Part shown: one piece after another, positions 1,059 to 45,597 of the stretch
Layout of the letters: every line of letters begins with the position of its first letter
Numbering within the stretch: position 1 is the first letter of the stretch
Origin: Dryocola clanedunensis subsp. sulfonylureivorans
Lineage (GTDB): Bacteria > Pseudomonadota > Gammaproteobacteria > Enterobacterales > Enterobacteriaceae
DNA length: 64,000 bases
Direction of reading: 5' to 3'
Assembly (NCBI RefSeq): GCF_016756775.1
Contig: NZ_JAERMU010000008.1
Coordinates: 62,001 to 126,000, forward strand
Notes under the pieces: generated by a model
Databases searched by the model: none
What the model was told of the DNA's origin: nothing
The model's input: only the letters and a program-made list of their open reading frames with translations
Made by a program: the position numbers and the translations under genes

Positions 1059-1077
1059 GGCCGCAAATTCTGCGGCC
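1059..1077. terminator. Terminator hairpin, left copy (tcyP side)
   Basis: GGCCGCA / TGCGGCC stem with a 5-base loop. Read on the minus strand it is followed by eight T residues, so it is the working terminator of tcyP. It is nearly identical to the hairpin at 1221-1239, and the repeat core lies between the two. Confidence 0.85.
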
Positions 1078-1082
1078 TTAGA

Positions 1083-1219
1083 TTGCTGACAAAGAAGGAA
1101 AAAGCGTGGTTTTTCCTTCTTTGTGGTAAGCAGGCGAAAATCAATGAATTGATTTTCCTTGTTATTTATTCGATGAGATCTTTGCGAAACGCATTTGCTT
1201 TAGGTTTGTCATCAGTCTG
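1083..1219 (-). repeat. Terminator-nested repeat (TNR), copy 1
   Basis: About 137 bp, one of three copies in the window (others at 5801-5938 and 45432-45568). Written on the minus strand it starts CTGATGACAAA and ends TTTGTCAGCAA, which form imperfect terminal inverted repeats. Inside are a 9-bp stem (GAAAATCAA / TTGATTTTC) and a long stem of about 15 bp (ACAAAGAAGGAAAAA / TTTTTCCTTCTTTGT) around loop CCACGC. It is flanked on both sides by copies of the local GGCCGC terminator hairpin. It lies between the convergent 3' ends of the MFS gene and tcyP. The name TNR is used only for this report. Confidence 0.85.
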
Positions 1220-1220
1220 A

Positions 1221-1239
1221 GGCCGCAAATTCGGCGGCC
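1221..1239 (+). terminator. Terminator hairpin, right copy (MFS side)
   Basis: GGCCGC-AAATTC-GGCGGCC hairpin followed by TTCTATTTTTT, so it can terminate plus-strand transcription from the MFS gene. One base differs in the stem from the hairpin at 1059-1077. Confidence 0.75.
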
Positions 1240-5774: not shown

Positions 5775-5800
5775 AAACCACTCCTGGGTGGGAGTGGTTT
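5775..5800. terminator. Terminator hairpin, left copy (yniB/yniA gap)
   Basis: AAACCACTCC / GGAGTGGTTT perfect 10-bp stem, loop TGGGTG. It is six bases past the yniB stop. A near-identical hairpin lies at 5943-5968 on the other side of the repeat core; only the loops differ. Confidence 0.85.
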
Positions 5801-5938
5801 CAGACTGATGACAAACTCATACCGATTGAGTTTCGAAAAGATCTCATCGAATAGATAACAAGGAAAATCAAGTCATTGATTTTCGGCTGCTAACCACAGA
5901 AGAAGGAAAAACCACGCTTTTTCCTTCTTTGTCAGCAA
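5801..5938 (+). repeat. Terminator-nested repeat (TNR), copy 2
   Basis: About 138 bp, same family as 1083-1219 and 45432-45568. It begins CAGACTGATGACAAA and ends TTTGTCAGCA. It carries the GAAAATCAA/TTGATTTTC stem near 5871 and the long AAGAAGGAAAAA/TTTTTCCTTCTT stem at about 5900-5931. In this copy the 5' half also folds (AAACTCA / TGAGTTT). It is bracketed by two copies of the local ACCACTCC terminator hairpin. Confidence 0.85.
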
Positions 5939-5942
5939 TGTT

Positions 5943-5968
5943 AAACCACTCCTGAGCGGGAGTGGTTT
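5943..5968. terminator. Terminator hairpin, right copy (yniB/yniA gap)
   Basis: AAACCACTCC / GGAGTGGTTT stem, loop TGAGCG. It lies 10 bases past the yniA stop (minus strand). Same stem as the hairpin at 5775-5800. Confidence 0.85.
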
Positions 5969-45409: not shown

Positions 45410-45430
45410 AGCGAGGCCAACGGCCTCGCT
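45410..45430. terminator. Terminator hairpin, left copy (sohB/yciN gap)
   Basis: AGCGAGGCC-AAC-GGCCTCGCT perfect 9-bp stem without a T-run on its right. Repeated exactly in the stem at 45574-45592. Confidence 0.85.
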
Positions 45431-45431
45431 T

Positions 45432-45568
45432 CAGGCTGATGACACATCTGAAACTTTTGAGAAGCGAAGAGCGAACGCTAATAAAATAACAAGGAAAATC
45501 AATTCATTGATTTTCGGCTGCTCACCACAAGGAAGGAAAAACCACGCTTTTTCCTTCCTTGTCAGCAT
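45432..45568 (+). repeat. Terminator-nested repeat (TNR), copy 3
   Basis: About 137 bp, same family as 1083-1219 and 5801-5938. Starts CAGGCTGATGACA, ends TTGTCAGCA. The long stem reads CAAGGAAGGAAAAA / TTTTTCCTTCCTTG: a G-C pair stands where the other copies have A-T, a compensatory change. The ATAACAAGGAAAATCAA-TTCA-TTGATTTTC block is nearly identical in all copies. Flanked by two copies of the local GCGAGGCC hairpin. Confidence 0.85.
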
Positions 45569-45573
45569 CATTT

Positions 45574-45597
45574 GCGAGGCCAACGGCCTCGCTTTTT
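45574..45597 (+). terminator. Terminator hairpin, right copy (sohB/yciN gap)
   Basis: GCGAGGCC-AAC-GGCCTCGC followed by TTTTTA. Full terminator on the plus strand for sohB. Confidence 0.88.

Follow-up and report, generated by a model that had tools for sequence, protein, structure and literature searches.

The window, the whole 64-kb (64,000-nucleotide) stretch of DNA analysed here, contains three copies of a short repeat, each enclosed by convergent ORFs and set inside a pair of terminator hairpins belonging to its own locus. Copy 1 (141 bp, positions 1079–1219 on the reverse strand, CAGACTG...CAATCTA) is flanked by 21-bp hairpins, one adjoining its right end at 1058–1078, with one mismatch relative to its partner, and the other adjoining its left end at 1220–1240. 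Copy 2 (142 bp, 5801–5942, forward strand) lies between 26-bp hairpins at 5775–5800 on the left and 5943–5968 on the right, the latter with two mismatches relative to the former. Copy 3 (45430–45573, forward strand), whose ends are diverged and whose limits are given to about ±2 bp, is bounded by identical 19-bp hairpins at 45411–45429 and 45574–45592. A sequence-only reading of the window had described a repeated core of ~137 bp (1083–1219, 5801–5938 and 45432–45568), bracketed by locus-specific hairpins and located between convergent genes; the three copies, their hairpin pairs and their setting are all borne out, and the limits of the core were drawn slightly too short for an element of ~141 bp. 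Elsewhere in the window, Rfam models match a phenylalanine leader (RF01859, 14971–15094) and the sRNA STnc180 (RF02079, 50772–50994).

The repeat is a non-coding, non-autonomous MITE of ~141 bp, with 140 nt separating CAGACTG from CAATCT inclusively in 50 of the 56 copies in which both ends were recognised. Its ends are imperfect inverted repeats of ~15–17 bp, a strong hairpin lies immediately inward of the right end, and the region as a whole has a very stable predicted fold (z −9.2). Rfam at gathering score returned nothing over the MITE, and, with regard to ERIC, REP/BIME and BoxC, its ends show no resemblance by eye to RU-3 in its printed form. When up to two mismatches are allowed, the end pattern TTNAGAYTGNTGACAAA matches the draft genome (5.1 Mb, 88 contigs) 165 times, compared to 3 for the reversed control, suggesting the presence of ~80–100 copies; with copy 1 as the query, at least 41 long matches were found in this genome among the 40 of 96 candidates that were scored. 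These matches, together with the 65 distinct copies taken for analysis, agree with the initial proposal of a mobile repeat present in many copies per genome. Of the 25 regions opened around unpaired end-pattern matches (L010–L034), most hold a MITE that is diverged or truncated, a few hold chance matches, and none holds an IS. When copy 2 was used as the query, 10 of 40 genomes were positive, including the source genome and with all six genomes of the genus among them. An exact 26-mer pattern from the core was found in 48 stretches, with named carriers including Cedecea, Mangrovibacter, Buttiauxella, Intestinirhabdus, Citrobacter, Enterobacter, Serratia and Providencia, among others, and ten plasmid records (nine Klebsiella and one Providencia) were positive for the MITE. 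Collections of E. coli genomes and of phages contained nothing that matched the MITE, and a scan of viral contigs using a neighbouring transporter returned a single, uninformative locus.

The 65 distinct copies were drawn from 60 fetched regions, the window and eight search loci, with matches below 64 bits excluded and a few of ~80 listed places left out. Nine copies in which an end went unrecognised were dropped, leaving 56; copy 3 of the window, whose ends escaped recognition, is one of the nine and does not enter the statistics. As the sample was taken from the top-ranked matches, divergent copies are under-represented, and many of the compared genomes are drafts. The copies deviate from their consensus by 5.3% on average.

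At 49 of these 56 copies a stem-loop, the terminator hairpin of the locus itself, is directly duplicated on the two sides of the element, and at the other seven a matching pair is absent. This is in keeping with the earlier suggestion that the element inserts at terminators and that the hairpin is duplicated like a long target-site duplication, and paired hairpins are present around most genomic copies. The duplications are 16–30 bp in length and symmetric about the hairpin dyad: their outer five positions pair at 4.24 of 5 in the true register, versus no more than 1.47 when shifted by 1–5 bp. Hairpins abut both ends of 45 of the 56 copies; when the flanks were shuffled 100 times, the corresponding number averaged 0.07 and never exceeded 1. 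The length of the duplication grows with that of the hairpin (Spearman 0.55, P 4e-5) under a stricter hairpin rule; a cruder first rule, by which two loci were misjudged, had yielded an r of 0.33, a value that shuffled pairings could exceed (maximum 0.58 in 10000). The paired hairpin copies differ at 61 of 1047 positions, similar to the divergence of the elements from their consensus, and 37 of the 49 pairs are non-identical under one choice of termini. These differences number 25 in 249 positions in the central six bases and 36 in 798 outside them, a pattern that fits older insertions with stems under selection. An A-run is kept outside the left hairpin copy at 40 of 49 sites and a T-run outside the right copy at 36 of 49. 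Tandem MITEs sharing an intermediate hairpin were observed at L007 and L008 (G000 C2:273588–273901), and elements at L093 (G119) are arranged likewise, as if the second element had entered an already duplicated hairpin.

Empty sites in sister genomes, proposed in the sequence-only reading as a check on insertion, were found at all three window loci. At the copy 2 site, all five genus relatives lack the element and carry one hairpin in place of the pair (5775–5800 in the window). The copy 3 site, which follows sohB, is empty with one hairpin in three of five relatives; in a fourth, G002, an element in the opposite orientation lies between two copies of that genome's own version of the hairpin, and in G003 (L152, after a sohB-like gene) a single hairpin is followed by TTTCAGATTGATGGCAAAC, which looks like a remnant of one MITE end. 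The copy 1 site is likewise empty with one hairpin in three of five relatives, is filled in the opposite orientation in G002, and is occupied by an unrelated terminator in G005. Independent insertion is the simplest reading of the opposite-orientation elements of G002, and inversion of the element in place is possible.

By a rough ORF rule, the 65 copies comprise 26 in convergent, 34 in tandem and 4 in divergent settings, with one copy left without a call; the convergent count becomes 27 of 65 once window copy 3 is corrected, this copy having been miscalled as tandem because its 83-aa neighbour falls under the ORF cut-off. Convergent genes are not the genome-wide rule for MITE sites. Under the same rule, the MITE lies along the direction of transcription at 15 of the 34 tandem settings and against it at 19, with window copy 3 wrongly counted among the 15. 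The claim that insertion is oriented relative to the terminator does not survive these counts, nor the finding that two of the window hairpins carry an opposite-orientation element in G002. That the T-run appears at the same end of the element is a matter of geometry, since a duplicated hairpin keeps its A-run beside the left copy and its T-run beside the right one.

A transposase-bearing element with matching ends, another check proposed at the outset, was found in other genomes. Exact matches to MITE-type ends occur in 34 of 295 Enterobacterales genomes, and those in G240 revealed inverted pairs with a spacing of 1544 bp; the elements with such ends in G240 and G119 measure 1544 and 1597 bp, respectively. 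The G119 element encodes an ORF of 478 aa from its ATG (488 aa as scanned) that matches the NCBIfam IS1182 model with 493 bits against a cut-off of 270, and that also matches Pfam DDE_Tnp_1_6, DUF772 and DDE_Tnp_1; all three examined copies of this IS in G119 are flanked by whole-hairpin duplications. In the 1544-bp IS1182 element of G240 (L085–L090), present in five copies, the transposase is specified in two overlapping frames of 204 and 289 codons, possibly through a programmed frameshift. Relatives were detected in 21 of 392 family genomes (E 1e-20), none of them in the source genus, and in 1315 plasmid records (E 1e-30), 19 of which show at least 60% identity. An apparent 1046-bp element (L091) proved to be a broken IS1182 with internal deletions, and at L100 an IS481-like gene lies beside an IS1182 end. 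MITEs of 143–218 bp with the same ends and otherwise unrelated in appearance were seen in other genomes (L095, L096, L101 and L103), and hairpin duplications of up to 32 bp are present at three of five examined other-genome MITEs with these ends.

The target habit of the IS1182 elements was assessed in 27 two-ended copies: 12 from the family (30 loci with matches, of which 19 were opened and 12 had both ends), 8 from G240 and G119, and 7 from plasmids. Whole-hairpin duplications of 14–25 bp are present at 18 of these 27, and their outer five positions pair at 5.00 of 5, versus 1.56 or less when shifted. The element termini are uncertain by 1–2 bp, so that duplication lengths vary slightly among analyses; with termini CAGA...TCTG, full outer-five pairing is obtained in 14 of 18 IS and 24 of 49 MITE duplications, and with TCAGA...TCTGA in 18 of 18 and 32 of 49. 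The remaining nine IS copies lack a matching pair, several having two different hairpins. At L108, L113 and L116 the ends are weak and were possibly misassigned. Nine extra plasmid copies, from Rhizobium (two), Aminobacter, Acinetobacter, Alkalihalophilus, B. subtilis, Sutcliffiella, Exiguobacterium and Peribacillus, provided seven more hairpin duplications, the exceptions being L247, which has no recognisable ends, and L246, which has two different hairpins. Overall, 25 of 36 examined IS1182 copies, from the Gammaproteobacteria, Alphaproteobacteria and Bacillota, duplicate whole hairpins. Two named pairs of filled and empty sites were found for the IS itself: the K. pneumoniae plasmid pRWS292.s4 with an IncC plasmid from E. 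coli AR434, and the V. penaeicida plasmid pTUMSAT-OK2 with pAQU2, the empty plasmid carrying one hairpin in each case. The copies located between two different hairpins (L109, L126, L127, L144 and L246) perhaps arose by recombination between copies or by adjacent deletion.

The MITE thus displays two marks of an IS1182-family MITE, namely ends as in an autonomous IS and the same kind of target duplication. A first search of 40 relatives with the IS1182 profile matched 10, one of them over the cut-off and none in the source genome, and no matching end pair was present at the 15 loci fetched from it. As no IS1182 transposase was found in the draft source genome or in its five genus relatives, the case that IS1182-type transposases probably mobilise the MITE in trans is built on common ends and target habit.

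In our judgement, an IS1182-family DDE transposase acting in trans is likely to move the MITE, joining the ends of the element at the borders of a stem-loop, with duplication of the whole hairpin. Such a transposase would recognise ends of the type CAGA(C/T)TGnTGACAAA and would join them to both borders of the target stem-loop, one per strand, the target usually being a Rho-independent terminator. Gap filling would then copy the entire stem-loop, so that the hairpin, rather than a fixed stagger, would dictate how long the duplication is. The sequences compared show that the duplication follows the hairpin; the hairpin would be extruded at the moment of strand transfer, most likely as a cruciform, in which the two bonds under attack, each located at a hairpin's 5' foot, would be distant along the duplex and would lie opposite one another across the four-way junction. 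Because the duplication would leave a hairpin and U-tract beyond the element each way, transcripts from either side should still meet a terminator after crossing it; insertion should therefore be nearly harmless, and the repeat would be able to fill terminators. The inserted element would become part of the 3' UTR, where a later role for the MITE is possible. On balance, we lean towards a broader view in which IS1182-type transposases are structure-guided, attacking an extruded hairpin at both of its 5' feet, across a four-way junction, with target shape setting both the site and the duplication length, and in which the same system, via MITEs such as the one described here and YPAL, has repeatedly colonised bacterial 3' UTRs through duplication of the terminator at each landing site.

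The same duplication might instead arise from a transposase acting on a single-stranded hairpin, on the lagging strand or in a transcription bubble, with no cruciform. Single strands also mark hairpin borders, and terminators get transcribed; however, cutting opposite strands symmetrically is more readily achieved when both arms are extruded, and no orientation bias with respect to transcription was seen (15 versus 19), leaving this route possible and a good deal less probable than not. Considerably more doubtful is the proposal that an ordinary fixed-stagger transposase inserts widely and that selection retains those insertions with a terminator on both sides. Hairpin copies would indeed preserve termination, and the outer tract is kept at 36 (T-run) and 40 (A-run) of 49 sites, but the duplications range from 14 to 30 bp and are nonetheless centred on the dyad, selection among sites cannot set both cuts symmetrically at the borders of each hairpin, and plasmid IS show like behaviour. 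An immobile, conserved composite 3'-end structure with duplicated terminators, with which the very stable fold (z −9.2) and the location at gene 3' ends would agree, is scarcely credible given a common core inside locus-specific hairpins, and is refuted for these loci by the one-hairpin empty sites and the opposite-orientation occupancy.

Most DDE transposons generate duplications of nearly constant length. The duplications described here vary ~two-fold, tracking the hairpin, in elements from the Gammaproteobacteria, Alphaproteobacteria and Bacillota, and present a concrete, testable case of shape-directed transposition; the site of DNA cleavage would seem to be determined by how the target folds. 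The IS1202 long-duplication group, with duplications of 16–28 bp comparable to those of the MITE, was considered as a mobiliser and rejected: its members are described in PMC10132070 as having 5'-TGT...ACA-3' ends and a TnsB-like transposase, which do not fit, and no relation to the MITE was found. A literature search with coverage outside most subscription journals and ISfinder found no link between YPAL and IS1182 and no account of hairpin-length duplications, and nothing decisive was found in PMC2267715, PMC3196728, PMC3281130, PMC10969869 and PMC11708052. Within the reach of these searches, two points are new: the connection to IS1182, and a duplication whose length is dictated by the target hairpin.

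The initial reading, in which the repeat did not fit ERIC, REP/BIME or BoxC, is incomplete: the repeat has one named relative, YPAL/RU-2. The RU-2 sequence printed in PMC2759123 (Table 1b) begins with TTCAGACTGCTGACAAA, and the left end of the MITE, TTCAGACTGATGACAAA, agrees with it in 16 of 17 bases. Both elements contain internal palindromes and have duplications at dyad symmetry, those of YPAL being given as 3–26 bp, at or adjoining the dyad, in PMC2229807 (citing De Gregorio 2006); duplications as short as 3 bp are not explained by whole-hairpin duplication and count against the proposed mechanism. In contrast to the ~141-bp MITE, YPAL/RU-2 measures 168 bp, and with RU-2 as the query nothing was matched at E 1e-10 in the source genome or the listed genus relatives, so that homology over the whole element was not detected. 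RU-2 matches are present in 15 of 246 family genomes; seven of 30 RU-2-like loci have both ends at 168 bp, and hairpin duplications flank six of these seven, a weak one in one case. De Gregorio's 2006 study is said to have found that many YPAL targets overlap terminators. To our knowledge no mover of YPAL has been named so far, and IS1182 offers a candidate. Because YPAL/RU-2 starts with the same end, the MITE is classed, from its sequence, as a new YPAL-like family, and the data fit an IS1182 origin for both.

Among IS1182-like elements, a copy annotated as ISBspe1 on an Alkalihalophilus plasmid, with ends CAGGCTGTTGAGAAAG, resembles the MITE in duplicating a whole hairpin, here of 20 bp; ISBspe1 differs in being autonomous, in belonging to the Bacillota and in having ends that are shared only in part. 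According to a 2015 review as cited in PMC5678879 and PMC4923244, palindromes are the targets of some IS1182 members. IS1272, of the IS1182 family, targets stem-loops that are often terminators, as the MITE does, but it is described in the same two papers as replacing the stem-loop without duplication, whereas the MITE and IS elements examined here duplicate it whole. For IS1272, PMC5678879 (2017) also drew, without testing it, a pathway b, by which the whole stem-loop would be duplicated if joining took place at its 5' feet, and the MITE and IS duplications look like a natural instance of the pathway as drawn there.
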